DNA from: an uncultured Pelagibacteraceae bacterium
GTDB taxonomy: Bacteria > Pseudomonadota > Alphaproteobacteria > Pelagibacterales > Pelagibacteraceae
Reading direction: 5' to 3'
Assembly: GCA_902597175.1 (NCBI GenBank)
Contig: CACJWN010000002.1
Coordinates: 62,001-126,000, forward strand
DNA length: 64,000 bases
Shown here: positions 41,791 through 62,581 of the stretch, one piece after another
Position numbering within the stretch: the stretch's first letter is position 1
Layout of the letters: each line of letters begins with the position of its first letter
Made by a program: the position numbers and the translations under genes
The notes under the pieces: generated by a model
The model's input: the letters and a program-made list of their open reading frames with translations, nothing else
What the model was told of the DNA's origin: nothing
Databases searched by the model: none

Positions 41791-41966
41791 AGAGGAAAGT
41801 CCTCTGCGTAACGGGAGAGACCATTTAGGCGCCGAAGGAGCAACCACCCCGGAAACTCTCAGGCAAAAGGACCGTTACCGTAATAACTCTGGAAAGCAGG
41901 CGAAAGCCTCACCGAAGGATTAAATCTCTCAGGTACATAGACAGATGGGGTTAGATAAGAGTTATT
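41791..41966 (+). promoter_or_regulatory. Tandem glycine riboswitch controlling gcvTHP
   Basis: Two glycine aptamers are visible. Aptamer 1 (41808-41878) is closed by GTAACGG/CCGTTAC and contains GGAGAGACC, GCCGAAGGAGCAA and AACTCTCAGGCAAAAGGACC. Aptamer 2 (about 41882-41953) contains CTCTGGAAAG, CACCGAAGGA, ATCTCTCAGGTA and ACAGATGGGG, closed by TAACTC/GGGTTA. A small AGAGGA-AAG-TCCTCT hairpin (41791-41805) comes first. The segment TAATAACTCT (41881-41890) is also exactly complementary to AGAGTTATTA (41958-41967), which covers the ribosome-binding zone and the first base of the gcvT ATG. Glycine binding should free the start site, giving an ON switch. Confidence 0.95.
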
Positions 41967-43061
41967 ATGGAAGTACAAAAAACAGCTTTATACAACTATC
42001 ATAAAAATTTAGGAGCAAAGTTTGTTCCTTTCGCTGGCTATGAAATGCCTATTCAATATAAAGATGGTATTGTTAAAGAACATATTTCTACAAGGACACA
42101 CGCTGGTTTTTTTGATGTCTCACATATGGGGCAATTTTTTTTAGAAGGTGATGAAACATTAATAGAGTCATTAGAGAAGATTATACCAGCAGATTTAAAA
42201 AATTTGAAAATTAATCATTCAAAGTATTCTTTTTTACTAAATAATGAAGGTGGAATAATTGATGATTTAATTATCACGAGAACAGAAAAAGGTTTTTGTA
42301 TAATCTTAAACGCAGCTTGTAAGGAAAATGATATAAAACAAATTTCTCAATTTTTAAAAAAACATCATAAACATCTTTTAAACAACGATTTATCTTTAAT
42401 AGCGTTACAAGGACCTAAATCTGTAGAGATTTTAGAAAAATTAATTCCAGGCGTTGCTAATTTAAAATTTATGACAGGAAACAATTTTGAGTATGAAAGT
42501 GAAAATCTATATGTAACAAGATCTGGATATACGGGTGAAGATGGTTTTGAAATCTCAATTTCTAACACAAAAGTTGAAAAGCTCATCGATTTCTTAATTT
42601 CAAATGAAGTTAAACCGATAGGTTTGGGAGCTAGAGATACATTAAGATTAGAGGCAGGTCTGTGTTTATATGGTCATGATTTAAATGAAAAAATAAATCC
42701 AGTGGAGGCTAATTTAAAATGGGCTATAGCAAAAAAAAGGAAAGAAGTTGGCGGCTTTAATGGATGGGAAAAAATAAAAAATTTATTAGCAAACGGAAGT
42801 GAAAAAATTAGAGTTGGTATAAAGCCAGATGGAAAAGTTATAGCTAGAGAAAATACGAAAATCTTTTCGACAGATAGTAATGAAATAGGATTCGTTACTA
42901 GCGGTACTTTTGGCCCGAGTGTGAACGCTCCAGTTGCAATGGGATATGTTAAATCAGAGTTTTCTGAGGTAGGTACACCTATTCAGCTTGAAGTAAGAGG
43001 AAAAAAATATGGGGGTAAGATTTCTGAACTTCCATTTTATAAAAAAAGTTATGTTAAATAA
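41967..43061 (+). CDS. gcvT: Glycine cleavage system T protein (aminomethyltransferase)
   Basis: This 364-aa T protein transfers the glycine-derived methylene group to tetrahydrofolate and releases ammonia. Family features are 'FAGYEMPIQYKDG' near residue 22, 'GFFDVSHMGQF' near 47, 'SGYTGEDGFEI' near 188 and 'GLGARDTLRLEAGLCLYGHD' near 218, holding the folate-site residues. It is first in gcvT-gcvH-gcvP and controlled by the glycine riboswitch just upstream; its own SD is weak (AAGAG), which suits control of translation start. GcvH follows after 12 nt. Confidence 0.95.
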   Translation: MEVQKTALYNYHKNLGAKFVPFAGYEMPIQYKDGIVKEHISTRTHAGFFDVSHMGQFFLEGDETLIESLEKIIPADLKNLKINHSKYSFLLNNEGGIIDDLIITRTEKGFCIILNAACKENDIKQISQFLKKHHKHLLNNDLSLIALQGPKSVEILEKLIPGVANLKFMTGNNFEYESENLYVTRSGYTGEDGFEISISNTKVEKLIDFLISNEVKPIGLGARDTLRLEAGLCLYGHDLNEKINPVEANLKWAIAKKRKEVGGFNGWEKIKNLLANGSEKIRVGIKPDGKVIARENTKIFSTDSNEIGFVTSGTFGPSVNAPVAMGYVKSEFSEVGTPIQLEVRGKKYGGKISELPFYKKSYVK

Positions 43062-43073
43062 GGAGAAACAAAT

Positions 43074-43454
43074 ATGAGTGAAAAAAAATTTTCAAAAAAA
43101 CATGAATGGGTTTCACTAGATGGAGACATTGCTACAGTAGGAATAACTAAGCATGCAACAGAAATGCTCGGTGACATTGTTTTTGTGGAGGTTCCTGATG
43201 CAGGTAAAGCTGTAGAAAAAGAAGGTCAAGCAGCTGTTGTAGAGTCAACTAAAGCCGCGAGTGATGTTTATTCTCCTATTTCTGGAGAAATTACTGAGGG
43301 AAATAAAGCAATTGCAGATGATCCCGGGAGCGTAAATACTGACCCTGAAGGTGCTAGCTGGTTTTTTAAGTTAAAGATAAAAGATAAAGGTGAGTATGAC
43401 TCTCTAATGTCAAAAGACGAATATGATAAATTTTGTAAGGAGAACCCTAGCTAA
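43074..43454 (+). CDS. gcvH: Glycine cleavage system H protein
   Basis: This 126-aa lipoyl carrier protein has its lipoylated Lys in '[17 protein letters not shown]' near residue 61, and '[18 protein letters not shown]' at the N-terminus and '[13 protein letters not shown]' near the end are typical. It has the best SD of the operon (AAGGAGA, 8 nt before the ATG), fitting the need for much more H protein than T or P. The stop is followed directly by the gcvP start. Confidence 0.97.
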
Positions 43455-46322
43455 ATGATTGATGATAATTCAAAAGAATTTATTAAAAGACATATTGGTC
43501 CTTCTAAAGAAGATCAGTCCAAAATGTTGCAATATGTTGGGTATAAATCATTAGAGGATCTAATGAGCAATACTGTACCTGAAAAAATCTTATTAAAAGA
43601 TGATCTTAAAATTGATCAGCCAATGTCAGAGAACGATGCTTTAAAAAAATTAAAATCTATATCTAAAAAAAATAAAATTTTTAAAAATTTTATTGGAATG
43701 GGATACTATAATTCTATTACACCTAATGTAATTCTTAGAAATATTTTAGAAAATCCAGGATGGTATACATCTTATACACCTTACCAACCTGAAGTGGCGC
43801 AAGGTCGTCTTGAAATGCTTTTAAATTTTCAACAATCAATAATTGACTTAACGGGCATGGATATAGCTAATGCTTCTTTGTTAGACGAAGCAACAGCAAC
43901 AGCAGAGGCAGTAGGATTAAGCCAGAGATTAGATAAGACAAATTCAAAAAAAATATTTATTTCAAGCAATTGCAATCCTCAGACAATTGATCTCATAAAG
44001 ACTAGAACAAATCCTTTTGGTTTAGAATTGATCATTGGTGACGAAAAAAAAGAACTTTCAAAAATTAATGAAGATATAATTTGTGGTGTTTTATCTTATC
44101 CGGGAACTTTAGGTGAGATAAACGATCCTAGTGAAAGCATCAGTCAAATTCACAAAAAAAACGGCAAAGCTATTTTGGTTTGTGACTTATTGGCTTTAGC
44201 TAGATTAAAAACTCCAGCTGAACTTGGAGCTGATATTGCTGTCGGTAGTGCTCAAAGATTTGGTATCCCAATGGGATACGGCGGGCCCCACGCAGCGTTT
44301 TTTGCTACTAAGGAAGAATTCAAAAGATCAATGCCTGGAAGAATTATAGGCGTTTCAAAAGATAAACACGGAAAAAAGGCTTACAGACTTTCTTTACAAA
44401 CTAGGGAGCAACACATTAGAAGAGATAAAGCAACAAGCAATATTTGCACTGCTCAAGCATTGCTAGCTATCATTTCTGCTGCCTTTGCGATTTATCATGG
44501 ACCTGAAGGAATACTTAAAATAGCGAATAGAACTTCTAAATTAGCTAAAATCTTCGCTGATAACATTAAAACAGGTGGTTACAAGATTTTATCAGATCAT
44601 TTCTTCGATACCGTCACAATTAATACTAGTGAAAAAACAAATTCTATTTTTGAGGCTGCACTAAAAGAGAATATAAACCTAAGAAAAGTTGATAAAGATC
44701 ATTTATCAGTTGCTTTTGATGAAGCAAAAAAGCTTGATGATGTTAATTTACTTTTAAAGTTGTTTGGAGTTTCTAAAATTATTAAACAAGATGTAAAGGT
44801 TGAACTAGATAATCTTCCAAAAAATCTTTTAAGAACTTCAAAATACTTAACACATCCAGTTTTTAACAAATACCATTCCGAAACTGAGATGCTAAGATAC
44901 TTAAAGAAACTAGAAGATTGCGATATTGCGCTCAATAGATCAATGATTGCTTTAGGATCTTGTACAATGAAGCTAAATGCAACAGCAGAATTAATTCCCA
45001 TTACCTGGAAAGAGTTTTCACTTCCACATCCATTTGTTCCTACAAATCAAATGGAAGGCTATAAAATTCTCTTTAATGATCTAATAAATGATCTTAAAGA
45101 AATTACTGGATATGACGCAGTTTCTTTACAGCCAAACTCAGGGGCTCAAGGAGAGTACGCAGGTTTAATGACTATAAGAAAATTCCATAAAAATAATAAA
45201 CAAGAAAATCGTAACGTCTGTCTAATTCCAGACTCAGCTCATGGGACTAACCCAGCAAGTGCACAAATGTGTGGGATGAAAGTCGTTGTAGTTAATTGTG
45301 ATGAAGATGGAAACGTCGATATAGACGATCTTAAAAATAAAGCTGAAAAACACTCAAAAGATTTAGCTGCTTTAATGGTAACTTACCCCTCTACGCATGG
45401 AGTATTCGAGGAAAAAATCATGGATATTTGTGAAGTTATTCATAAGCACGGTGGACAAGTCTATATGGATGGAGCCAATCTAAACGCACTTGTAGGTGTT
45501 GCAAAGCCAGGGAAATTTGGACCAGATGTTTGTCATATTAATTTACATAAAACATTTTGTATACCTCACGGTGGAGGCGGACCAGGAATGGGCCCAATCG
45601 CTTGTGCTAAGCATCTAGCTGATTTTTTACCAACACACGAAATTATAAAAGAGGCAGGGCCTAAGAATGGAATGGGGGCTGTATCAGCTGCACCTTGGGG
45701 TAGTTCAAGTATACTTCCAATATCTTGGATGTATATAAAGATGATGGGTGCTGAAGGATTGAAAAAAGCCTCACAAGTTTCAATTTTAAATGCGAATTAT
45801 ATTTCAAAAAAATTATCCAAAGATTACAAAGTTCTTTACACTGGTAAAAATGGAAATGTTGCACATGAATGCATAATTGATATCCGACCAATTAAAGCAA
45901 GTTCAGGTATCTCTGAGGAGGATTTAGCAAAAAGACTGATTGACTTTGGCTATCATGCTCCAACAATGTCATGGCCTGTTGCTGGTACAATTATGATTGA
46001 GCCAACTGAAAGTGAAAATTTGGAGGAGATTGATAAGTTTTGTAATGCACTTATAAAAATTAAAAAAGAAATAAATTTAGTGGAGTCATCAAAGTTTGAC
46101 AAAACAGATAACCCGCTGAAAAATGCTCCTCATACTTATGTTGAGTTAGCTTCCAGTGAGTGGAAACATGCTTATTCAAGAGAGGAAGCAGCTTTTCCAA
46201 CTGAGTATGTAAAAAATAATAAATATTGGGCACCCGTTGCTAGAGTAGATAACGTTTTTGGAGATAGAAATTTAGTATGTTCATGTCCTTCAATGGATGA
46301 ATATAAAGATGAAGCTGCTTAA
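43455..46322 (+). CDS. gcvP: Glycine dehydrogenase (decarboxylating), P protein
   Basis: This 955-aa PLP enzyme decarboxylates glycine and loads the aminomethyl group on GcvH. It is the single-chain form: the N-terminal half (to about residue 430) and C-terminal half are both present. The PLP Lys lies in 'CHINLHKTFCIPHGGGGPG' near residue 700, 'DEATATAEAVGLSQRL' is near 155 and 'SAQRFGIPMGYGGPHAAFFA' near 270. Length matches the family. It ends the gcv operon; the next gene starts 9 nt later. Confidence 0.97.
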   Translation: MIDDNSKEFIKRHIGPSKEDQSKMLQYVGYKSLEDLMSNTVPEKILLKDDLKIDQPMSENDALKKLKSISKKNKIFKNFIGMGYYNSITPNVILRNILENPGWYTSYTPYQPEVAQGRLEMLLNFQQSIIDLTGMDIANASLLDEATATAEAVGLSQRLDKTNSKKIFISSNCNPQTIDLIKTRTNPFGLELIIGDEKKELSKINEDIICGVLSYPGTLGEINDPSESISQIHKKNGKAILVCDLLALARLKTPAELGADIAVGSAQRFGIPMGYGGPHAAFFATKEEFKRSMPGRIIGVSKDKHGKKAYRLSLQTREQHIRRDKATSNICTAQALLAIISAAFAIYHGPEGILKIANRTSKLAKIFADNIKTGGYKILSDHFFDTVTINTSEKTNSIFEAALKENINLRKVDKDHLSVAFDEAKKLDDVNLLLKLFGVSKIIKQDVKVELDNLPKNLLRTSKYLTHPVFNKYHSETEMLRYLKKLEDCDIALNRSMIALGSCTMKLNATAELIPITWKEFSLPHPFVPTNQMEGYKILFNDLINDLKEITGYDAVSLQPNSGAQGEYAGLMTIRKFHKNNKQENRNVCLIPDSAHGTNPASAQMCGMKVVVVNCDEDGNVDIDDLKNKAEKHSKDLAALMVTYPSTHGVFEEKIMDICEVIHKHGGQVYMDGANLNALVGVAKPGKFGPDVCHINLHKTFCIPHGGGGPGMGPIACAKHLADFLPTHEIIKEAGPKNGMGAVSAAPWGSSSILPISWMYIKMMGAEGLKKASQVSILNANYISKKLSKDYKVLYTGKNGNVAHECIIDIRPIKASSGISEEDLAKRLIDFGYHAPTMSWPVAGTIMIEPTESENLEEIDKFCNALIKIKKEINLVESSKFDKTDNPLKNAPHTYVELASSEWKHAYSREEAAFPTEYVKNNKYWAPVARVDNVFGDRNLVCSCPSMDEYKDEAA

Positions 46323-46331
46323 TCTCTTTTA

Positions 46332-47558
46332 ATGAAAATCGCTGTTATCGGCTCAGGTATCTCAGGATTATCTTGCGCATATTTTCTCTCAAAAAAATAT
46401 AAAGTTGATCTATATGAAAAAGAAGATCACTTTGGAGGTCATTCTTTTACCTACGAGATAAAAGAAGATGATAAGATTGTTCCAGTAGATCTAGGCTTTA
46501 TTGTTTTTAATGAAGTTACTTATCCAAATTTAGTAAATTTTTTTAATGAATTAAAAGTTCCTTATGAAAAAAGCGATATGTCATTTTCTGTATCAATTAA
46601 GAATAGTAATGTTGAATATAGCGGAAGTGGTTTAGGAGGTATTTTTGCTAATAAATTAAATCTTCTTAATTTAAAATTTTTATATATGATTAGAGAGATA
46701 ATTTCATTTTATAAAACTGCTCCAAAATTACTTGAAAGTGAAATTAAAGAGGAAACTCTTGGCAGTTTCCTTAATAAAAAAAAGTTATCAAATTACTTCA
46801 TTGAGTATCACTTAATCCCCATGGTTGCTGCTATCTGGTCAATGCCTTTTAATAAAGCAAAGGAAATGCCATTAAAATTTTTTTTAAATTTTTTTACTAA
46901 CCATGGTTTATTTAAATTCAAAAATAGACCGCAATGGTACACAGTTTCAAATAGAAGTAGATCTTATGTAAAAAAAGTAACAGAGAAAATTAGTGGAGAA
47001 ATTTTTAAAAATTATAAAGTGGATAAGTTAATTAGAAGCGATGACAATATCAGAGTAATTATTGGCAATGAATATGTTGACTATGATCAAGTAGTGCTAG
47101 CTTCCCATGCAGACCAAAGTTTAAGAATGATAGAAAAACCAACGGAACAAGAAAAAGATATATTGGAAAAATTTAATTACGTGAAGAATGAGGCTTACTT
47201 ACATACTGATAAGAGATTAATGCCTCATAAAAAAAGGGCTTGGTCTAGTTGGAATTCTGTTTCAAACGGTGAAAAGACATGCATTACCTATTGGTTAAAT
47301 AAACTACAAAATTTAGATACATCTAAAGACTATTTTTTAACTTTAAACCCTATTTGTAAAATTAATGAAAATTCTGTTATAAAAAAAGTTGATTTTACAC
47401 ACCCATATTTGAATTCAAAAAATACCGCGCTTCAAAAAGATCTAAGATTAATACAAGGAAAAAAAAGGACTTGGTTTTGTGGAAGTTATTTTGGTTACGG
47501 ATTTCATGAAGATGGACTAAAATCATCTATAGATTTAATAAAAAACTTTAAGATTTGA
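46332..47558 (+). CDS. FAD-dependent oxidoreductase, UfaD-like (amine-oxidase fold)
   Basis: This 408-aa flavoprotein has an FAD-binding start 'KIAVIGSGISGLSCAYFLS' and 'LYEKEDHFGGHSFTY', then 'VDLGFIVFNEVTYPNLV' near residue 58. It is of the amine-oxidase/phytoene-desaturase-like type often found beside DUF1365 and Cfa-like genes. In Rhodobacter a desaturase of this context (UfaD) acts in furan fatty-acid synthesis. The same neighbours are present here (DUF1365, Cfa-like methyltransferase, DUF3833, SDR), so a lipid desaturase role is a reasonable inference. It overlaps the DUF1365 gene by 4 nt. Confidence 0.75.
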   Translation: MKIAVIGSGISGLSCAYFLSKKYKVDLYEKEDHFGGHSFTYEIKEDDKIVPVDLGFIVFNEVTYPNLVNFFNELKVPYEKSDMSFSVSIKNSNVEYSGSGLGGIFANKLNLLNLKFLYMIREIISFYKTAPKLLESEIKEETLGSFLNKKKLSNYFIEYHLIPMVAAIWSMPFNKAKEMPLKFFLNFFTNHGLFKFKNRPQWYTVSNRSRSYVKKVTEKISGEIFKNYKVDKLIRSDDNIRVIIGNEYVDYDQVVLASHADQSLRMIEKPTEQEKDILEKFNYVKNEAYLHTDKRLMPHKKRAWSSWNSVSNGEKTCITYWLNKLQNLDTSKDYFLTLNPICKINENSVIKKVDFTHPYLNSKNTALQKDLRLIQGKKRTWFCGSYFGYGFHEDGLKSSIDLIKNFKI

Positions 47559-48316
47559 TGAATTCCTGCATTTACAACGGTGAAGTAACTCATACAAGAT
47601 TTAAACCTGTAAGACATTTTTTAAAATATAAAACTTTTTCATTATTAATTGATTTAGATGAAATTAATCAACTAGACAGTTCAATAAATATTTTCTCTCA
47701 TAATAAGTTTAACATTTTCAGCTTTTACGACAAAGATCATGGAGAACGCGACGGAAGTGATTTAAAAGAGTGGGTTCTTAAAAACATTAGTAAGTTCAAA
47801 ATAAAAGGTGAAATTAATAAAGTTAAAATACTTTGTTATCCAAGAATTTTTGGTTATGTGTTCAACCCTTTAAGTATTTTTTACTGCTACGAGGATAATA
47901 AATTAAAGGCGATTTTTTATGAGGTAAAAAATACTTTTAATGAGCAGCATACATACATTTTTAAAATAAAAGATAACGAGGAAATAGCTCAAAAATGCAA
48001 AAAAAAGTTTTACGTATCGCCATTTATGGATATGGAAACTTACTATAATTTTAAATTAATAAATCCCAATGATAAACTCTCAGTTTTTATTAAACAAACA
48101 GACTCGATAGGAACAGTTTTAACAGCCACCCAAACAGGAGAGAAAAAAGAATTTAATTCGAAACAACTCATTTTTAACTTTTTTAAGTATCCGTTAATGA
48201 CAATTAAGATTATTAGTTCGATACATTTTGAAGCATTACTTTTATGGAAAAAAGGGGCAATATATAGAAAAAGAAATACTAAATTAAAGAACAATCTAAG
48301 TTACGAAGAATATTAA
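47555..48316 (+). CDS. DUF1365-family protein
   Basis: This is a 253-aa DUF1365 protein. The N-terminal 'IYNGEVTHTRFKPVRHFLKYKTFSLLIDLDE', recognised from 'GEVTHTRFKPVRHFLKY', and 'YPRIFGYVFNPLSIFYCY' near residue 112 are the family hallmarks, along with 'KNTFNEQHTYIF' near 135 and 'FYVSPFMDMETYYNF' near 158. The role is unknown, but the family nearly always sits between an FAD oxidoreductase and a Cfa-like methyltransferase, as it does here. It starts with TTGATG-type overlap to the gene before, and the next gene begins at its last stop base (TAATG). Confidence 0.88.
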   Translation: MMNSCIYNGEVTHTRFKPVRHFLKYKTFSLLIDLDEINQLDSSINIFSHNKFNIFSFYDKDHGERDGSDLKEWVLKNISKFKIKGEINKVKILCYPRIFGYVFNPLSIFYCYEDNKLKAIFYEVKNTFNEQHTYIFKIKDNEEIAQKCKKKFYVSPFMDMETYYNFKLINPNDKLSVFIKQTDSIGTVLTATQTGEKKEFNSKQLIFNFFKYPLMTIKIISSIHFEALLLWKKGAIYRKRNTKLKNNLSYEEY

Positions 48317-49506
48317 TGAGTTTATTTAAAATTACAGAAAAATTTGTCTTGAATAAATTAAAGAACATCTCGCAAGGAAATTTAAAACTTATTAATTATG
48401 ATGGAAAAGTTTTTCACTTTGGCGACTTAGAGAGTAAATTATCTTCAGATATCAAAATTAATAATCCAAATTTTTACCTAAACGTCGTTATGGGTGGAAG
48501 CTCAGCTTTAGGAGAAGCTCACATGAAAAAAGATTTTTATACCTCAAATTTAACAAATTTAATTGAACTTACAGCAAGAAATATCAATACAATCTATTCT
48601 TTTTCAGGAAGTTTAAAATTACAAAAAATAAAAAATTTTTTGAAAAAAATATTTGCATCTAATACAAAATCAAAGAGTAAAAAATATATTTCAAAACATT
48701 ATGATTTAGGGAATGAATTTTTTTCATTGTGGCTTGATAAATCTCTCACTTATTCCAGTGCAGTTTATAAAAGCGATAAAGATGATTTAGAAATCGCTCA
48801 AAGAAATAAATTTCAAGAGCTTATAAATTTAATGAATATAAAAGATGGTAACAAGGTTTTAGAAATTGGATGTGGCTGGGGCGGTTTTGCTGAATTCTTA
48901 GCTAAAAATTATGATGTAAATGTAGACTGTATCACGATTTCAAAAAATCAATATGAATTTTCTAAAAAGAAGATTTTTAACTCAGGTTTAAATAATAAAG
49001 TTAATGTAAAGTTTTTGGATTACAGAGATCTTAAGGAAAAGTACGATCATGTAGCTTCAATAGAAATGATAGAGGCTGTCGGTGAAAAATATATGGACCA
49101 ATATTTTGGTACAATAAAAAATGTTCTTAATTACAATGGTACTGCAGCAATTCAAGGCATCGTGATAAAAGATGACTTATTTGAAAGATATAGAGCGAAT
49201 GAGGATTTTATTCAAAAATATATATTTCCAGGTGGATTTTTACCTTCAATTAAATTTATGGAGAATATAATTAAAAAAAATGACCTTAAACTAGAAAAAA
49301 TCAATACTTACTCGGATGACTACGCCAGAACTTTAGCAACTTGGAGAGAAAATTTTTTAGGTGTTTGGGAAAAGATTAGCCCACTTGGTTTTGATGAATA
49401 TTTCAGGCGTATGTGGGAATTTTACTTATCTTATTGTGAAGGCGGTTTTAAGTCTAGAAACATTAACTTGATTCAATTCTCTATGTCTAATAGATATTCG
49501 TCATGA
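48316..49506 (+). CDS. Cyclopropane-fatty-acid synthase-family methyltransferase (UfaM-like)
   Basis: This 396-aa SAM-dependent methyltransferase acts on membrane-lipid acyl chains in known relatives. The SAM site is 'VLEIGCGWGGFAEFLAKNY' near residue 180, preceded by 'SKHYDLGNEFFSLWLDKSLTYSSA' (read from 'HYDLGNEFFSLWLD'). 'IEMIEAVGEKYMDQYF' keeps the Glu of Cfa enzymes. The position of the Cfa bicarbonate-ligand His appears as Gln ('AAIQGI'), as in the alphaproteobacterial Cfa-like group that includes UfaM. It may therefore make a methylated or furan lipid precursor instead of a cyclopropane. It overlaps DUF3833 by ATGA. Confidence 0.85.
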   Translation: MSLFKITEKFVLNKLKNISQGNLKLINYDGKVFHFGDLESKLSSDIKINNPNFYLNVVMGGSSALGEAHMKKDFYTSNLTNLIELTARNINTIYSFSGSLKLQKIKNFLKKIFASNTKSKSKKYISKHYDLGNEFFSLWLDKSLTYSSAVYKSDKDDLEIAQRNKFQELINLMNIKDGNKVLEIGCGWGGFAEFLAKNYDVNVDCITISKNQYEFSKKKIFNSGLNNKVNVKFLDYRDLKEKYDHVASIEMIEAVGEKYMDQYFGTIKNVLNYNGTAAIQGIVIKDDLFERYRANEDFIQKYIFPGGFLPSIKFMENIIKKNDLKLEKINTYSDDYARTLATWRENFLGVWEKISPLGFDEYFRRMWEFYLSYCEGGFKSRNINLIQFSMSNRYSS

Positions 49507-50027
49507 AAAAATTTATAATACTATTTTTACTAATTTTAACGACAGGATGTGCAAATAAAATGAAACCAACAGATTTTAAAGATCAAAAACCAAGATTAGT
49601 CATCGAAAATTATTTATCGGGTAATGTTAAAGCTTGGGGGGTATTACAAAATAGATCTGGAAAAGTTACGAGACAATTTAAAGCTGATCTAAATGGAAAA
49701 TGGGATGGTTCTCAATTAATTTTAGACGAAGTTTTTGATTGGAACGATGGGGAAAGACAAACTCGTCAATGGACTATTAAAAAAATTGATGAACATAACT
49801 ATGAGGGAACAGCCTCTGATGTAGTTGGAACAGCCAAAGGATATTCATATGGTCCAGCTTTTAAATTCGAATATGTATTGTTAGTGCCGGTTAAAGGGAA
49901 AAATATCAAAATTACTTTTGATGATTGGATTTTCATGCAGGATGATCGCGTGGCAATAAATAGAGCGACAATGACTAAGTTTGGAATAAAAGTTGCAGAA
50001 TTAACCGTAATGTTTGTTAAAGATTAA
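49503..50027 (+). CDS. DUF3833-family lipoprotein
   Basis: This 174-aa exported protein has a lipobox 'LTTGC' near residue 16, so it is probably a lipoprotein. The rest matches DUF3833: 'KPRLVIENYLSGNVKAWGVLQNRSGKVTRQF', seen from 'YLSGNVKAWGVLQNRSG', and 'VVGTAKGYSYGPAFKFEYVL' near residue 115. It closes the lipid operon and converges with the SDR gene with a 4-nt overlap. The function is unknown; context points to the cell envelope. Confidence 0.88.
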   Translation: MKKFIILFLLILTTGCANKMKPTDFKDQKPRLVIENYLSGNVKAWGVLQNRSGKVTRQFKADLNGKWDGSQLILDEVFDWNDGERQTRQWTIKKIDEHNYEGTASDVVGTAKGYSYGPAFKFEYVLLVPVKGKNIKITFDDWIFMQDDRVAINRATMTKFGIKVAELTVMFVKD

Positions 50028-50776
50028 CGCTTTACTAGTTTATCTACTAAAAATAAATAAAGTCTATAAGGTAATATTCTTAAAAATTTTAAAGTTAAAG
50101 TTAAGCCTTTTGGGAAATGAATTTCAAAAGCATTTCCTTTCACCAAACCATTATAAATTTTATCTGCAGCGTATTCAGGAGTTTTTAAAAACGGCATTGG
50201 AAACTCATTTTTATCGGTCAGAGGAGTTTTGATGAAACCTGGTGATACAACTGAGACTCTTACTCCAAATTTTTTAAAATCAAAGTAAATACTTTCACTA
50301 AAATTAGTTAGAGCAGCTTTTGAAGGACCATAACCACTTGAATTTGGCAGACCTCTATAACCTGCAATTGAAGAAACTATCGAAATATGTCCAGATTTCT
50401 TATTTTTAAAATAATCTTCAACAACTTTTACGCAATCAATAACGCCTAAAAAATTAACATTAATTACATTTTTAATCTTATCTGGATCTATATTTTGCTC
50501 GTCCTTTGGCTCATAAGTTCCACTTGAAAATAAACAAACGTCAATGTCACCAAAAGCATTTAAAATATCTTTAAAAACATTATTTATTTGAGACTGGTTG
50601 GTTACATCCAGGGGAAATGAACTTATATTGTTGTGTTCAGCTAGCTCATCCAAAAGTTCTTTTCTTCTTGCAGATACAGCAACTTTCCATCCCTCGTTAG
50701 CAAATTTTTCGGCTACTGCCTTTCCAATTCCACTACTTGCACCTGTAATCCATATTTTTTTCTGATTTTCAGACAT
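50024..50776 (-). CDS. Short-chain dehydrogenase/reductase
   Basis: This 250-aa SDR has an NAD(P) motif 'IWITGASSGIGKAVAEKFA', the catalytic set Ser 'ISIVSSIAGY' and 'YGPSKAAL' with Tyr and Lys (about residues 150-157), and 'VSVVSPGFIKTPLTD' near 178. A C-terminal hydrophobic segment ('LKFLRILPYRLYLFLVDKLV') suggests membrane contact. Such SDRs are usual members of the DUF1365/Cfa/DUF3833 neighbourhood. It is divergent from tspO with 21 bp between starts. Confidence 0.88.
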   Translation of the reverse strand: MSENQKKIWITGASSGIGKAVAEKFANEGWKVAVSARRKELLDELAEHNNISSFPLDVTNQSQINNVFKDILNAFGDIDVCLFSSGTYEPKDEQNIDPDKIKNVINVNFLGVIDCVKVVEDYFKNKKSGHISIVSSIAGYRGLPNSSGYGPSKAALTNFSESIYFDFKKFGVRVSVVSPGFIKTPLTDKNEFPMPFLKTPEYAADKIYNGLVKGNAFEIHFPKGLTLTLKFLRILPYRLYLFLVDKLVKR

Positions 50777-50797: not shown

Positions 50798-51262
50798 ATG
50801 ACGAAGAATAAATATTTATCTCTAACATTCATTCTTTTAATAACATTTTTAGCATCTGGAATTGGTGGATTTACTACTGCGACTTTTAAAGAGCCTTGGT
50901 ATTCCCAGATAATTCTTCCAAGTTTTAATCCTCCAAGCTGGGTGTTTGGGCCTGTATGGACAATTTTGTATATCTTAATGTCAGTAGCAATTTGGCGTGT
51001 TTGGATAAACTATTATGATAATAAAATTTTAAACATATATTTTTTACACCTCTTTTTTAATATGATTTGGAGCATTATTTTTTTTGGTTTTCATCAAATA
51101 GGACTAGCATTACTAGATTTAGTAATAATTCTTTTATTTATAGTTCTCTTAATGAAAATTTATTATCTGAAAGATAAGATTAGTTTTTATCTGATGGTTC
51201 CTTACTTTTTATGGAGTGGTTACGCTTTAGTGTTAAATTTTAATATTTTTATTTTAAACTAA
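50798..51262 (+). CDS. tspO: TspO/MBR-family protein
   Basis: This 154-aa five-helix membrane protein has the TspO pattern 'LPSFNPPSWVFGPVWTILYILMSVAIWRVW' (seen from 'NPPSWVFGPVWTILY', near residue 43), an N-terminal 'ASGIGGFTTA', and the aromatic-rich helix 'MIWSIIFFGFHQIGLALLDL' near 88. TspO binds porphyrins and helps control photo-oxidative stress in related bacteria. Its place beside the lipid operon and photolyase genes supports such a role. Confidence 0.9.
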   Translation: MTKNKYLSLTFILLITFLASGIGGFTTATFKEPWYSQIILPSFNPPSWVFGPVWTILYILMSVAIWRVWINYYDNKILNIYFLHLFFNMIWSIIFFGFHQIGLALLDLVIILLFIVLLMKIYYLKDKISFYLMVPYFLWSGYALVLNFNIFILN

Positions 51263-52928: not shown

Positions 52929-53498
52929 ATGAAAAAAATTTTACTTTTTGTCACTATACTTACCCTTAGTTTTAATTTGTATGCGGAGGAAAAAAAAGCC
53001 TATTTTGCTGGCGGTTGTTTTTGGTGTATGGAAGAGTCATTTGATCAAATAGAGGGAGTGTTATCGTCAATTTCTGGATATTCAGGAGGTCACTTAAAAA
53101 ATCCTACTTATCAAGATGTAATATATAAAGACACTGGCCACGTGGAGGCTATAGAAATAACATATGACTCCAAAGTTGTAAGTTATGAAAAACTTTTAAA
53201 TATTTATTGGAGAAATATAGATCCTTTTGATTCGGAGGGTCAGTTTTGTGACAAAGGTAAAAGCTATAGATCAGTAATTTTTTTTCAGAATCAACTAGAG
53301 AAAGAATTTATTGATAAATCTTTTAAAAATTTAGAAAGTAAATTTAATAGAGAAATAGTCACTTTAGTTTGGAAATTTAAGAAATTTTATCCAGCAGAGG
53401 ATTATCACCAAGATTATTATGAGAAAAATTTTATTCGTTATCTCATGTATAAAAATGGGTGTAAAAGAGAAGATATCTTGAGAAGAATATGGAATTGA
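52929..53498 (+). CDS. msrA: Peptide methionine sulfoxide reductase MsrA, exported
   Basis: MsrA repairs oxidised methionine (S-form). This 189-aa protein has a signal peptide (ending near 'NLYAEE', residue 20) and the catalytic 'FAGGCFWCMEESFDQIEGV' with the nucleophile Cys near residue 31. 'SGYSGGHLKNPTYQDV' and 'GHVEAIEITYD' are typical, and 'FYPAEDYHQDYYEKN' closes the core. Export suggests it repairs periplasmic proteins. It overlaps the next gene by 10 nt. Confidence 0.93.
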   Translation: MKKILLFVTILTLSFNLYAEEKKAYFAGGCFWCMEESFDQIEGVLSSISGYSGGHLKNPTYQDVIYKDTGHVEAIEITYDSKVVSYEKLLNIYWRNIDPFDSEGQFCDKGKSYRSVIFFQNQLEKEFIDKSFKNLESKFNREIVTLVWKFKKFYPAEDYHQDYYEKNFIRYLMYKNGCKREDILRRIWN

Positions 53499-53944
53499 AA
53501 AAAATAATTTTAGCAATTTTTTTTCTAGGTTTTATTAATTCAGTAAATGCAGAAATGATAAAACCAGCTGAAAATTTATCTGCTTATGATGTTATTAAAA
53601 TACAATTAGATGCTCTCAAAAATAATGATGATAAAGATAATGGCATTAAACAAACATGGATATTTGCTCATCCTGATAATAAAAAGATGACTGGGCCATA
53701 CCCTAGATTTAGAATTATGCTTTATGATGTTCATTATAGAATACTTCTAAACCATTTTTCACATAAGATAGATTTAATTACGAATACTGAAAATAAATTT
53801 GTTTATGGAGTGAAAGTATTAAGCGATGAGAAGCAACAATTTTTTTATGAATGGCACGTAAGTAAAGGTAATGAGGAAAATTGTCTTAATTGCTGGTTCA
53901 CGACTGCAGTTTCAATGCCACTTGATCAAGGAAATTCAATTTGA
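53489..53944 (+). CDS. DUF4864-like exported protein
   Basis: This 151-aa protein has a signal peptide ending near 'SVNAE' (residue 22). The body begins 'SAYDVIKIQLDALKNNDDKDNGI', recalling DUF4864 (NTF2-like fold) proteins, which start their core with a 'VxxQLDAfknnD' helix followed by 'tWiFAhPxNkk'. Two Cys ('NCLNCW') lie near the C-terminus. The function is unknown. It overlaps msrA by 10 nt and the next gene by a TTGA junction. Confidence 0.6.
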   Translation: MELKKIILAIFFLGFINSVNAEMIKPAENLSAYDVIKIQLDALKNNDDKDNGIKQTWIFAHPDNKKMTGPYPRFRIMLYDVHYRILLNHFSHKIDLITNTENKFVYGVKVLSDEKQQFFYEWHVSKGNEENCLNCWFTTAVSMPLDQGNSI

Positions 53945-54141
53945 AAAGACCACCCTTTGCAATACGATACTTAATTATTGGTGCAATATTAGTTTTGCCG
54001 CCAATACTCAGCACTCACTATGGATCAATATATTTAGGCAAGCATAATGGAGTCCTTTTAGGTTTTTGCGTCGGAATTGTTTGCGTATCTTTTGCATGCT
54101 GGAAGCTTTTTATCGATGGGTGGAGGGATGACGAAGACTGA
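53941..54141 (+). CDS. Small two-helix membrane protein
   Basis: This 66-aa protein has two hydrophobic segments (about residues 9-25 and 36-55). It starts with TTG overlapping the previous stop (TTGA), and its stop overlaps the next start by one base, so it sits tightly in an msrA-to-photolyase-like operon. No family is recognised. Tight packing on both sides makes it likely to be real. Confidence 0.6.
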   Translation: MKRPPFAIRYLIIGAILVLPPILSTHYGSIYLGKHNGVLLGFCVGIVCVSFACWKLFIDGWRDDED

Positions 54142-55277
54142 TGAAATTCGAAATCTCAAGGGACGGAGCTTTAAAACAGCTCGATGCTTTTATAAACAGT
54201 GAATTATCAAATTATAGTTTCAAAAGAAATTTTGATTTAGGCCCAAAAGACAAATCAAATGTATCTTGCTTATCACCTTATATCTCCCATAGATTAATTA
54301 CTGAGTATGAAGTAGCCAAAACTGTTTTATCTAAGTTTCCATATCAAAAAGTTGAAAAATATATCCAAGAAATATTTTGGAGAGTTTATTGGAAAGGTTG
54401 GTTGGAGCTTAGACCTCAAGTTTGGACTGACTTTATTGAGGATTTAAAAGGATTTAAGGAAGATGACAATTATAAAAAAGCAATCAATGGTGAAACTCAA
54501 ATTGAATGTTTTAATGATTGGGTAAAAGAGCTGAAAGAAAATAATTATTTACATAATCATACAAGAATGTGGTTTGCTAGCATTTGGATATTTACTTTAA
54601 ATTTACCTTGGCAAAAAGGTGCAGAACTCTTTATGAAACATTTATTTGATGGTGATGCTGCTTCAAATACATTGAGCTGGAGATGGGTTGCTGGACTTCA
54701 AACTAAAGGAAAGCACTACGTTGCTCAATCATGGAATATAAGCAAGTTTACTAATAATAAATATAAGAATGTTAAATTAAATGAGAACGCATTACCTGTA
54801 ACAGATAAAAGAGAATATAAATTAAACCCAATTGATTTTATTACAGAAGATAATTCAAATGAAAATTTACTAGTTTTTGAAAACGAATTAAATTTAGAAA
54901 ATAAAAATTTAAAAAAATATAAAAATATTTACTTAGTTTTACTTAGTAATGATGTTCGAAAGCTAAAGCTTGAACAAAAAGTCCTAGACTATAAGTCAGA
55001 AATAATTAATGATCAAAAAAAAAGATTTGAAGAATTACAAATCATAAATGAAGTAAAATTTCAAACTCTTATAACTGAAATTAACTCTTTTGATGTAGTT
55101 CACCCATGCATAGGAGAAAATTTTTCTTTTTTAAATACTATTCGAAAAAAGCGAAATTTAAAATTAAACTTTGTTTTGAGTGAGGAAGACAAATTTTCAT
55201 GGCAATTTTCTAATAAAGGATTTTTTAATTTTAAAAATAACATTCCTAAAATTTTGACAAGTTTTAAATTACAATAA
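54141..55277 (+). CDS. Photolyase/cryptochrome FAD-binding-domain protein with C-terminal Rossmann-like part
   Basis: This 378-aa protein opens directly with the photolyase FAD domain instead of the usual N-terminal antenna domain. 'CLSPYISHRLITEYEVAKTVL' (near residue 50), 'IFWRVYWKGWLELRPQVW' (near 88), 'HNHTRMWFASIWIFTLNLPWQKGAELF' (seen from 'NHTRMWFASIWIFT', near 140) and 'DGDAASNTLSWRWVAGLQT' (near 175) are clear photolyase motifs. Residues about 250-378 form an alpha/beta segment ('NIYLVLLSNDVRKL', 'VVHPCIGENFSFLN') that may be a trailing Rossmann domain. It may repair DNA or sense light; neither is proven. Confidence 0.8.
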   Translation: MKFEISRDGALKQLDAFINSELSNYSFKRNFDLGPKDKSNVSCLSPYISHRLITEYEVAKTVLSKFPYQKVEKYIQEIFWRVYWKGWLELRPQVWTDFIEDLKGFKEDDNYKKAINGETQIECFNDWVKELKENNYLHNHTRMWFASIWIFTLNLPWQKGAELFMKHLFDGDAASNTLSWRWVAGLQTKGKHYVAQSWNISKFTNNKYKNVKLNENALPVTDKREYKLNPIDFITEDNSNENLLVFENELNLENKNLKKYKNIYLVLLSNDVRKLKLEQKVLDYKSEIINDQKKRFEELQIINEVKFQTLITEINSFDVVHPCIGENFSFLNTIRKKRNLKLNFVLSEEDKFSWQFSNKGFFNFKNNIPKILTSFKLQ

Positions 55278-55278
55278 T

Positions 55279-55407
55279 CTATTTTGAAGAACATTTTTTT
55301 GAACAATATTTTACTCTATCCCAATTAAGTTTCCATTTTTTTCTCCAGGCGAAAGGTCTATTACAAACTGGGCAAGTTTTTTTTGGCAAATTAGCTTTTT
55401 TTATCAT
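55279..55407 (-). CDS. DUF2256-family small zinc-ribbon-like protein (42 aa; not in ORF track)
   Basis: This short gene is absent from the supplied ORF track. The minus-strand frame from the ATG at 55407 to the TAG at 55279 encodes 42 residues, starting 'MIKKANLPKKTCPVCNRPFA' and ending with 'YCSKKCSSK'. The two Cys pairs and the central 'WRKKWKLNWDRV' are the DUF2256 pattern. In many genomes DUF2256 lies beside PhrB-type photolyase genes, as here. It overlaps the DCC-family gene by 17 nt and ends 1 nt from the convergent FAD-domain gene. The function is unknown; zinc binding is likely. Confidence 0.88.
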   Translation of the reverse strand: MIKKANLPKKTCPVCNRPFAWRKKWKLNWDRVKYCSKKCSSK

Positions 55408-55750
55408 TAAGTTGATGTTTATTTTTTATAAATAGGAAATAAGCTGCAATCTCATAGAAAATATTTAATATAAAAAAAAGAGGTTTAATTTTAAATATTT
55501 TATATAAAAAATTATATTTAGGAACATTTTTCCAAATTATTAAAAAAGACTCTGCTCCATCAATTATTTTACCATCTTGTATAACATGCATTCTTCTTAA
55601 AAGTTCTTTGTATGATTTGGAGGTAACTTTCTGAGCTTCTTCATTATTAGTTACATCTATCCATTCTACCCTGTTATCACTATGTTTTTTGTAATGATTG
55701 ATTTCGGCTCTACAAATATTACATGAATTGTTAAAAAAAACTTTAACCAT
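55391..55750 (-). CDS. DCC-family (DUF393) thiol-disulfide oxidoreductase-like protein
   Basis: This 119-aa protein has the DCC signature form 'VFFNNSCNICRAEINHYKKH' near the N-terminus, with a CxxC pair of thioredoxin type (the usual first D-C-C is N-S-C here). 'IDGAESFLIIWKNVP' near residue 65 and a C-terminal hydrophobic helix are usual for DUF393. It overlaps the photolyase-related gene upstream by 8 nt and DUF2256 downstream by 17 nt, so the three are one operon. Confidence 0.85.
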   Translation of the reverse strand: MVKVFFNNSCNICRAEINHYKKHSDNRVEWIDVTNNEEAQKVTSKSYKELLRRMHVIQDGKIIDGAESFLIIWKNVPKYNFLYKIFKIKPLFFILNIFYEIAAYFLFIKNKHQLNDKKS

Positions 55751-57224
55751 TAGTATTTTCTTTAATAAAATTATTAGCAGCTTTAAAAATTCTTGTTTTC
55801 CTCTCTTTATTCATTTTTTCAGAAACTCTAACCATCATTGCAAGACGTGGATTTTTTAAAAAGAATTTCTTATGTCTATCTATAAATTTCCAATATAATC
55901 CGTCCATTACATCACACCAAGGACCCTTTTTAAAATGCATCATCTTGAGAAAATAACTAGATCCACAAATATAAGGTTTAGTTGCAAAAATTCCGCCGTC
56001 ACTAAACAACCCCATTCCATAAACATTAGGCGCCATCACCCAGTCAGATGAATCCACGAACATTTCCATAAACCATTTATAAACTTGTTTAGGATTTATC
56101 TCACAAAGATTCATTATATTTGCCAATATCATTAGCCTTTCAATATGATGTGACCAACCGTAGTTTTTAGCATTATTGATTGCATGATCTAACGGATCTA
56201 AACCAGTATTCCCGTCATACCAAGATTTTTTCATTTTTCTTTTATGATTAAAAAAATTAGTGTTATCCAATCGTTGATCATAGTTTTGGTAAATTCCTCT
56301 CATAAATTCTCTCCAACCTATAATCTGTCTAATATAACCCTCTAAGGAATTAATAGGTACTTTATTTTCAATCTTTCTTAACTTCTCTATTATTTCTTCA
56401 GGGGCAATTAAACCTAAGTTTATAAGTGGGCTTAGCGCGCTATGAAAAACAGTATTTGATTTATCTGTCACTGCATCTTCATAATCCCCAAAAAGCTTTA
56501 TTCTCTCTTTCAAAAACTCATCAAGCCATTTACTTGCGTCTTTTCGTGTAGTTGGAAACCAAAATTTATCAGCATTCCCTGGATGGTCTTTAAAATTTGA
56601 ATTTATAAATTTTTTAAGAGTAATAGTTTCCTTTGTCTCTTTTGCCTTAGAAATTGCAGGAACTTTAATATTATTAGGAAGTTTTTTTCTATTATCTTCA
56701 TCGAAACTCCATTTATTCCCTTTTGGAGTTCCATTCTTATTCATCAATAAATTCATTTTTGTTCTTACAATTTTATAAAAATTTGCCATGAAAGGCCGTT
56801 TATTTTTAGAAAGGTAATCTTTAAATTCTTGTCTCTCCATTAAAAACATTGGAGATCTAATTTGGTTTATCTTAAGTGAATTTTTTTTTCCTAAATTAAA
56901 TATTCTTTTTTCAAAAAATTTATCCTCAATTTCAAAAAAAGTAATTTCTTTTATCTTTTTTTCTTTAATAGTCTTTTCTAATTTTTTTTCATAGGATAAT
57001 TTAAAATCTTTATTTACATCTTTATAAATTACATTAAAATTTTTTGATTTTAGCTCGTCTTTGAAAGATCTCATTGAAGACAAAAAAAGAAGAATTTTTA
57101 ATTTATGATGTTTTTCAAAAGTACATAAACCATAGTCCTCTGCCATAAAAAAAATGTGATCTTTATAATCAGATAGATATTTTGGGTTAAATAATTGATT
57201 TCCTAAAATAATAAAAAGCTTCAT
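55743..57224 (-). CDS. PhrB-related cryptochrome/photolyase family protein, apparently lacking the FeS CxxC
   Basis: This 493-aa protein belongs to the deoxyribodipyrimidine photolyase-related (FeS-BCP/PhrB) family. It has an N-terminal Rossmann domain ('LFIILGNQLFNP') and the FAD-domain motifs 'EGYIRQIIGWREFMRGIY' (near residue 292), 'NYGWSHHIERLMILANIMNLC' (seen from 'GWSHHIERLMILANI', near 355), 'MFVDSSDWVMAPNVYGMGLF' and 'DGLYWKFIDRH'. Known (6-4) photolyases here carry a CxxC and a later Cys in the stretch before 'LYW'. This protein has only 'YICGSS' and 'GPWCDVMDGLYW', with 'HFKKG' where the CxxC should be. The FeS cluster is therefore probably absent or differently bound. Confidence 0.85.
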   Translation of the reverse strand: MKLFIILGNQLFNPKYLSDYKDHIFFMAEDYGLCTFEKHHKLKILLFLSSMRSFKDELKSKNFNVIYKDVNKDFKLSYEKKLEKTIKEKKIKEITFFEIEDKFFEKRIFNLGKKNSLKINQIRSPMFLMERQEFKDYLSKNKRPFMANFYKIVRTKMNLLMNKNGTPKGNKWSFDEDNRKKLPNNIKVPAISKAKETKETITLKKFINSNFKDHPGNADKFWFPTTRKDASKWLDEFLKERIKLFGDYEDAVTDKSNTVFHSALSPLINLGLIAPEEIIEKLRKIENKVPINSLEGYIRQIIGWREFMRGIYQNYDQRLDNTNFFNHKRKMKKSWYDGNTGLDPLDHAINNAKNYGWSHHIERLMILANIMNLCEINPKQVYKWFMEMFVDSSDWVMAPNVYGMGLFSDGGIFATKPYICGSSYFLKMMHFKKGPWCDVMDGLYWKFIDRHKKFFLKNPRLAMMVRVSEKMNKERKTRIFKAANNFIKENTNG

Positions 57225-61690: not shown

Positions 61691-62581
61691 ATGGATTGGG
61701 ACAAATTAAAAATTTTTCATACTGTTGCTGAGGCATCGAGTTTTACTAAAGCATCTACAATCTTAAACTTAAGTCAATCAGCAATTAGCCGCCAAATTCA
61801 AGGCTTAGAGAGCGATCTCAAAGTTCAATTATTCGAACGTCATGCTAGAGGTTTAGTTTTAACAGAAAATGGAGAGTATCTTTTTAAATCAGCTCATGAA
61901 GTAATTTCTAAATTAAAAGATGTTGAGTCAAATTTAAGTGGTCATAAAGATAAACTAAATGGAAAACTTGTAGTAACTACCGTAGTTAGTTTTGGAACCA
62001 CTTGGCTTACTCCAAGAATTAAAGAATTTATGGATCTTCATCCTGGCATAGAAATTGAATTAATTTTTGACGATAGAGAACTTGATTTAGCGACACGTGA
62101 AGCCGATGTAGCAATAAGAATGAGAAGACCTAAACAGTTGAATTTGATCCAAAAAAAATTCGTAGATTTTAATTATCACATTTACGGCTCAAATAAATAT
62201 TTGGAAAAAAACGGTTATCCAAAAACATTAAAAGATTTAGATAAACATAAATTTATCACTTATGGCAAAGGAGCACCATCACCAGTCTATAATCCAGATT
62301 GGGTATTGAAAGTTGGCGCAAAAGATGGAAAAAAAAGAAAATCTTTGATGAAAGTAAATAGTGTTTATGGATTATTATTAGCAGTTCAAAGCGGTGTGGG
62401 TTTAGCTGCACTTCCGGATTATATAGCTCATAACCAAAGTGGAATTACTAAAGTTTTACCAAATGAACCAGGCAAGCCTACCGAAACACACTTTGTTTAT
62501 CCTGCGTCTCTAAAAAATAATGCAAGACTTATGGCTTTTAGAAATTTTCTTTTTAGTAAGGTAAACGAATGGAAATTTTAA
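61691..62581 (+). CDS. LysR-family transcriptional regulator
   Basis: This 296-aa LysR-type regulator has an N-terminal helix-turn-helix ('LKIFHTVAEASSFTKASTILNLSQSAISRQIQGLE', seen from 'FHTVAEASSFTKASTILNL') and a C-terminal ligand domain. 'SDLKVQLFERHARGLVLTENG' follows the HTH. The C-terminal 'DLATREADVAIRMRRPKQ' is in the group with GcvA-like regulators, but the target is unknown. It lies 18 nt after acuI and overlaps rseP by 13 nt. Confidence 0.92.
   Translation: MDWDKLKIFHTVAEASSFTKASTILNLSQSAISRQIQGLESDLKVQLFERHARGLVLTENGEYLFKSAHEVISKLKDVESNLSGHKDKLNGKLVVTTVVSFGTTWLTPRIKEFMDLHPGIEIELIFDDRELDLATREADVAIRMRRPKQLNLIQKKFVDFNYHIYGSNKYLEKNGYPKTLKDLDKHKFITYGKGAPSPVYNPDWVLKVGAKDGKKRKSLMKVNSVYGLLLAVQSGVGLAALPDYIAHNQSGITKVLPNEPGKPTETHFVYPASLKNNARLMAFRNFLFSKVNEWKF

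Follow-up and report, generated by a model that had tools for sequence, protein, structure and literature searches.

The 64,000-nucleotide stretch of DNA analyzed here (the window; positions 62,001 to 126,000 of contig CACJWN010000002.1, from an uncultured Pelagibacteraceae bacterium) harbors homologues of ufaD, ufaO and ufaM, genes of furan fatty acid synthesis, directly downstream of a tandem glycine riboswitch and the glycine-cleavage genes gcvT, gcvH and gcvP. With a probability of about 0.77, the window carries the complete furan-fatty-acid pathway of marine SAR11, its ufa genes forming the tail of the gcvTHP unit and being probably switched by the riboswitch. Among the heterotrophs of the surface ocean, SAR11 is the most abundant. 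The locus is organized as follows:

41798..41948, plus strand: tandem glycine riboswitch 5' of gcvT, with the first aptamer at 41802-41884
41967..43061, plus strand: gcvT, aminomethyltransferase of glycine cleavage; open reading frame (ORF), kept as the leading gene of the unit across SAR11
43074..43454, plus strand: gcvH; ORF conserved in SAR11
43455..46322, plus strand: gcvP, glycine decarboxylase; ORF whose stop codon, in the junction sequence, lies 9 bp 5' of ufaD
46332..47558, plus strand: ufaD, predicted methyl-fatty-acyl desaturase dependent on flavin adenine dinucleotide (FAD); Pfam NAD_binding_8 and Amino_oxidase
47558..48316, plus strand: ufaO (DUF1365), putative oxygen-inserting furan-ring step; Pfam DUF1365, E 5e-74
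48316..49506, plus strand: ufaM, predicted cis-vaccenoyl 11-methyltransferase dependent on S-adenosylmethionine (SAM); CMAS, E 5e-84; Ser148/Glu253/Gln280 signature
49503..50027, plus strand: DUF3833 lipoprotein-like protein of the family of RSP1088; Pfam E 2e-61
50024..50776, minus strand: convergent short-chain dehydrogenase (SDR), counterpart of RSP1087; Pfam adh_short
50798..51262, plus strand: TspO/MBR protein, a neighbor conserved in SAR11 by synteny; Pfam E 1e-39

The first-pass annotation, made from the letters alone, had listed an FAD oxidoreductase, DUF1365, a Cfa-like methyltransferase, DUF3833, an SDR and TspO for the range 46332-50776. All of these were found as intact ORFs with strong matches to their Pfam families, except that TspO, though present, lies just beyond the end of that range. 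From ufaD through the SDR gene, adjacent genes overlap by 1-4 bp, with 4 bp shared by the SDR gene and the end of the operon, and an alternative TTG start of ufaO is possible at 47555. The order ufaD-ufaO-ufaM is kept in genome after genome, far beyond chance. The proposal of a furan-type lipid operon gained support from the UfaM tree and the UfaD profile described below but was incomplete, as DUF1365 had not been recognized as UfaO, and both the glycine-cleavage operon with its riboswitch directly upstream and the absence of RpoE-ChrR had been missed.

The source genome (0.99 Mb in 19 contigs), earlier called SAR11-like, belongs to SAR11 proper. In G372, a complete genome from the GTDB family of the window, a glycine riboswitch is located at 649,787-649,876 and gcvT starts at 649,954, directly after the HTCC1062 intergenic region 649763-649953 for which a glycine riboswitch preceding gcvT (SAR11_0666) was published (Meyer et al., 2009; PMC2704228). 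The window's family is therefore SAR11, and the window shares the riboswitch and first gene of the HTCC1062 unit. The accessible portion of the HTCC1062 account does not report an extension of that unit into fatty-acid genes.

The riboswitch of the window scored 63.7 bits with Rfam RF00504 (cut-off 32), and the two-aptamer family RF03166 aligned over 41798-41948 with an E value of 2e-13, but below its gathering score. A glycine riboswitch was present 5' of gcvT in the window and in 15/15 SAR11 loci tested, spanning five genera. The gap between gcvP and ufaD was found to be -1 to 14 bp in 66/66 marine SAR11 loci from several genera, and no terminator-like site was detected between the two genes. 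The riboswitch is followed by an unbroken run of genes on the same strand. From this anatomy we infer, as the simplest reading, a unit of seven genes (gcvT-gcvH-gcvP-ufaD-ufaO-ufaM-DUF3833) governed by the riboswitch, in which the gcv and ufa genes would be co-transcribed and respond to glycine. The gcv-linked UfaD and UfaO sequences formed one clade (FastTree support 1.000), and the linkage was absent from the genomes of LD12 type, IIIa type and g5 and from the other alphaproteobacteria sampled.

In three genomes of the same order but of another family (L072, L073 and L074), the ufa genes follow sarcosine-oxidase-type genes, which are also one-carbon-producing. In L073 (469-9038), ufaD-ufaO-ufaM is preceded by confirmed soxB, soxA and soxG genes and a DUF983 gene, while in L072 and L074 the sox linkage rests on SoxA-sized proteins with a GcvT domain. 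The occurrence of ufa genes behind this second type of one-carbon operon may be a coincidence.

Lemke et al. (2020; PMC7380195) showed that the three proteins UfaM (RSP2144), UfaD (RSP1091) and UfaO (RSP1090) of Rhodobacter sphaeroides jointly suffice for making 9M5-FuFA, a furan fatty acid, as do RPA2569, RPA2571 and RPA2570 (UfaM, UfaD and UfaO) of Rhodopseudomonas palustris. The Arabidopsis homologue of UfaO is a DUF1365 protein (PMC10940516). Since RSP1090 is UfaO and the Arabidopsis homologue belongs to DUF1365, the DUF1365 protein of the window was identified as UfaO, and homologues of all three enzymes are therefore present. The locus resembles RPA2571-2569 (ufaD-ufaO-ufaM) and RPA2568 of R. 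palustris in its three enzymes and in their gene order (PMC7380195) and deviates from it in following gcvTHP and a glycine riboswitch. With a UfaD profile, the window gene scored 634.9 bits, as against 27.7 bits for the next match in its own genome. It was the sole strong match there, as was the corresponding gene in the HTCC1062-like genome and in each of two Cereibacter genomes, where the C. azotoformans gene adjoins rpoE-chrR. C. azotoformans, C. johrii and C. changlensis, found via a published primer, served as congener stand-ins for R. sphaeroides 2.4.1. A single DUF1365 gene is present in each of the Cereibacter genomes and in almost every SAR11 genome checked. The predicted structure of UfaO was confident (predicted local distance difference test score, pLDDT, 92) and showed a beta-rich barrel. 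A fold search against the PDB returned no significant match (best E 5.6e-3, template modeling (TM) score below 0.5), the best ones, at E about 0.01, being weak matches to fatty-acid-binding-like (FABP) and nitrobindin barrels.

Several observations weigh against a complete pathway under riboswitch control. The UfaO of the window is only 27% identical to Cereibacter UfaO, so that it might yield another product or act with another regiospecificity; no furan lipid from SAR11 was found in the open-licence literature searched. One promoter-like site (10/12) is located at 46096 in the 3' end of gcvP, such sites being no commoner than chance, and a Red Sea transcript study ties riboswitch reads to gcvT and, in its accessible portion, is silent on the ufa genes (PMC5069720). 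The furan operon could be transcribed independently, with a promoter inside gcvP driving ufaD and the gcv adjacency reflecting packing in a streamlined genome. SAR11 genomes are compact, with many unrelated genes abutting, and the promoter-like site lies about 230 bp 5' of ufaD; however, the short gap maintained over several genera, the lack of a terminator-like site and the placement of ufa genes behind another one-carbon-producing operon in the three order-mate genomes make independent transcription unlikely, if still a serious contender. Less probable still is a truncated or altered pathway in which, owing to a diverged UfaO, SAR11 would form 11-methyl-branched fatty acids, diene fatty acids or a different furan. 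UfaO is indeed the least conserved of the three enzymes, with 27-31% identity to the Rhodobacteraceae proteins, but 15 columns are invariant over 51 UfaO proteins, that of the window included, and all SAR11 loci examined have ufaO placed between the ufaD and ufaM genes.

The methyltransferase shares the CMAS family with Escherichia coli Cfa and retains the equivalents of its Glu239 and Tyr317, but carries Ser for Cys139, Ala for His240 and Gln for His266 and belongs to a separate clade. Residue alignment matched Gln280 (codon 49153-49155) with His266, Ser148 with Cys139 and Glu253 with Glu239, bearing out the earlier remark that Gln occupies the position of the bicarbonate-binding His. Among the bicarbonate ligands of cyclopropane synthase (Cys139, Glu239 and His266), the Glu alone is kept, and the protein carries the UfaM signature as defined in the present analysis (Gln for His266, Ser or Ala for Cys139, Glu239 kept). 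In a set of 75 proteins, each operon-linked protein and each Cereibacter UfaM orthologue had Gln266, and each Cfa-type protein His266; Gln at this position is, on the sequences compared, diagnostic for UfaM versus Cfa. The motif SIEM[F/I]EAVG occurred in nearly all Gln-type proteins of the set and SVGMFEHVG in most Cfa-type ones.

A phylogeny of the methyltransferase had been suggested by the first-pass annotation, which held that grouping with true cyclopropane synthases, along with cyclopropane lipids alone, would speak against a furan pathway. The maximum-likelihood tree separated a UfaM group from a Cfa group with support of 97/93 and placed the window protein in the former with the Cereibacter orthologues, apart from the cyclopropane synthases; E. 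coli Cfa and a His-type Cfa paralogue from elsewhere in the window's own genome (C12; L001:1156-2361) fell outside the UfaM clade. Two divergent rows (L089_solo and L081_b) are long branches of unsure placement. Two strong CMAS proteins each were found in the HTCC1062-like and HTCC7211-like genomes, and one each, the operon-linked UfaM, in two genomes of LD12 and IIIa type. The Cereibacter UfaM orthologues were the only strong CMAS matches in their genomes, with a photolyase gene adjoining in two. An ordinary cyclopropane fatty acid synthase, to which the top NCBIfam model (Cfa, though scoring below its cut-off) and the PDB neighbors (Cfa enzymes) would point, is rejected by the tree and the residues and is highly improbable, as the protein lies outside the Cfa clade without Cys139 and His266, the same genome has a separate Cfa-type paralogue, and the Cfa model is the best-scoring one for the Cereibacter UfaM orthologue as well, which makes that annotation non-discriminating.

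The Cfa paralogue of the window's own genome has Met for Cys139 and EHFG for EHVG, while its genus mates keep the Cys; drift or altered function is possible. In an alphaproteobacterium (L081:4346-6886), two tandem divergent Gln-type CMAS genes, one of which also lacks Glu239, adjoin ufaO and ufaD and may provide for a further methylation, as FufM does. Genome G081 carries, inside its ufa operon, an additional divergent UfaM-like gene (L099:6064-7257) besides the ordinary ufaM; this genome is of the same family as the Rhodobacteraceae-like G206.

As to the enzyme activities in SAR11 and their physiological role, we infer the following. By orthology, UfaM would add a methyl group at C11 of the cis-vaccenoyl chains in membrane phospholipids, yielding 11Me-12t-18:1 through a double-bond shift instead of cyclopropane closure. 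With Cys139 and His266 changed, the enzyme might no longer bind the bicarbonate base, and the methylated cation might then lose a proton to leave a shifted trans double bond and no ring. UfaD would then desaturate this product to the 10t,12t-diene, from which UfaO, with O2, would close the furan ring of 9M5-FuFA. The furan lipid would scavenge singlet oxygen, suiting a sunlit surface cell. It has been reported that 9M5-FuFA vanishes upon exposure to singlet oxygen and that cells unable to make it are killed by singlet oxygen (PMC7380195). The tandem riboswitch would probably switch the ufa genes as the tail of the gcvTHP unit, and glycine cleavage yields one-carbon units that can enter SAM, from which UfaM takes its methyl group.

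UfaD, UfaO, DUF3833 and SDR of the R. sphaeroides/Cereibacter operon RSP1091-1087 all have counterparts in the window, and the genes of the Cereibacter operon have the sizes published for RSP1090-1087. The Cereibacter locus deviates in that chrR and rpoE, the latter for an extracytoplasmic function (ECF) sigma factor, are oriented divergently to ufaD and in that the locus has one additional MFS gene (RSP1089). Its ufaM (RSP2144) is unlinked and lies beside a photolyase gene, whereas the SAR11 ufaM is within the operon. Unlike Cereibacter, SAR11 genomes are without RpoE and ChrR. The sigma-70 region-4_2 model gave zero matches in 11 SAR11 genomes (ten single-contig genomes and the window's own), the control genomes being positive. 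In the SAR11 genomes tested, the region-2 proteins numbered only two, sized like RpoD and RpoH, and ChrR had no match above cut-off. Since neither an ECF sigma factor nor the anti-sigma factor ChrR is present, the known RpoE-ChrR control is gone in SAR11; both were detected in the Cereibacter control. RSP1090 and RSP1091 are required for the degradation of ChrR under singlet oxygen in R. sphaeroides (PMC3818230), and UfaD and UfaO might accordingly serve chiefly in singlet-oxygen signaling via ChrR proteolysis and not as lipid enzymes. This is very doubtful because SAR11 keeps both genes without the regulator, so that their preservation needs another cause, which argues that their conserved job is lipid chemistry. 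The two functions proposed for UfaD and UfaO, lipid enzyme and ChrR-proteolysis factor, are thus separated in SAR11.

UfaO was found in 161/198 sampled genomes of the window's family (79 of the 91 best ones) and in 141/289 sampled genomes of the class. The ufaD-ufaO(-ufaM) genes were operonic almost everywhere sampled, often behind a photolyase gene; the conservation of ufaD-ufaO in alphaproteobacteria, frequently with rpoE-chrR, is already known (PMC3818230). No relative of UfaO was detected in the viral contigs searched, and plasmids held only distant homologues, in other proteobacteria.

As far as the open-licence literature shows, the genomic and regulatory setting of the ufa genes in SAR11 is a new variant, and the inferred locus tags SAR11_0669 to SAR11_0672 were not named in the literature searched. 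A complete furan-lipid pathway in most SAR11 species would bear on the origin of marine furan fatty acids and on the light survival of cells with almost no stress regulators, and the gcv-ufa fusion makes it directly testable whether a metabolite riboswitch is coupled to the chemistry of membrane lipids. The odds are about even for the wider proposition that marine SAR11 has moved a photoprotective lipid pathway from RpoE-ChrR to glycine-riboswitch control, tied it to one-carbon and SAM metabolism, and is a major furan source of the ocean.

The DUF3833 and SDR genes of the locus also have relatives in Cereibacter. The DUF3833 protein is of the same family as the product of a 186-aa Cereibacter gene, and its R. 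sphaeroides counterpart, RSP1088, is dispensable for furan synthesis (PMC7380195). Its model is a calycin-like barrel with fold matches at E 1e-5 to 1e-4, including a CpeS-type lyase and polyketide spirocyclases. The counterpart of the SDR is a 245-aa SDR within the same Cereibacter operon. Further 3' of TspO (52929-57224), a light- and oxidation-stress cluster conserved in the genus is present:

52929-53498: MsrA
54141-55277: photolyase/cryptochrome C-terminal-domain protein (FAD_binding_7 only)
55391-55750, minus strand: DCC1-like thiol oxidoreductase
55743-57224, minus strand: DPRP photolyase-related protein

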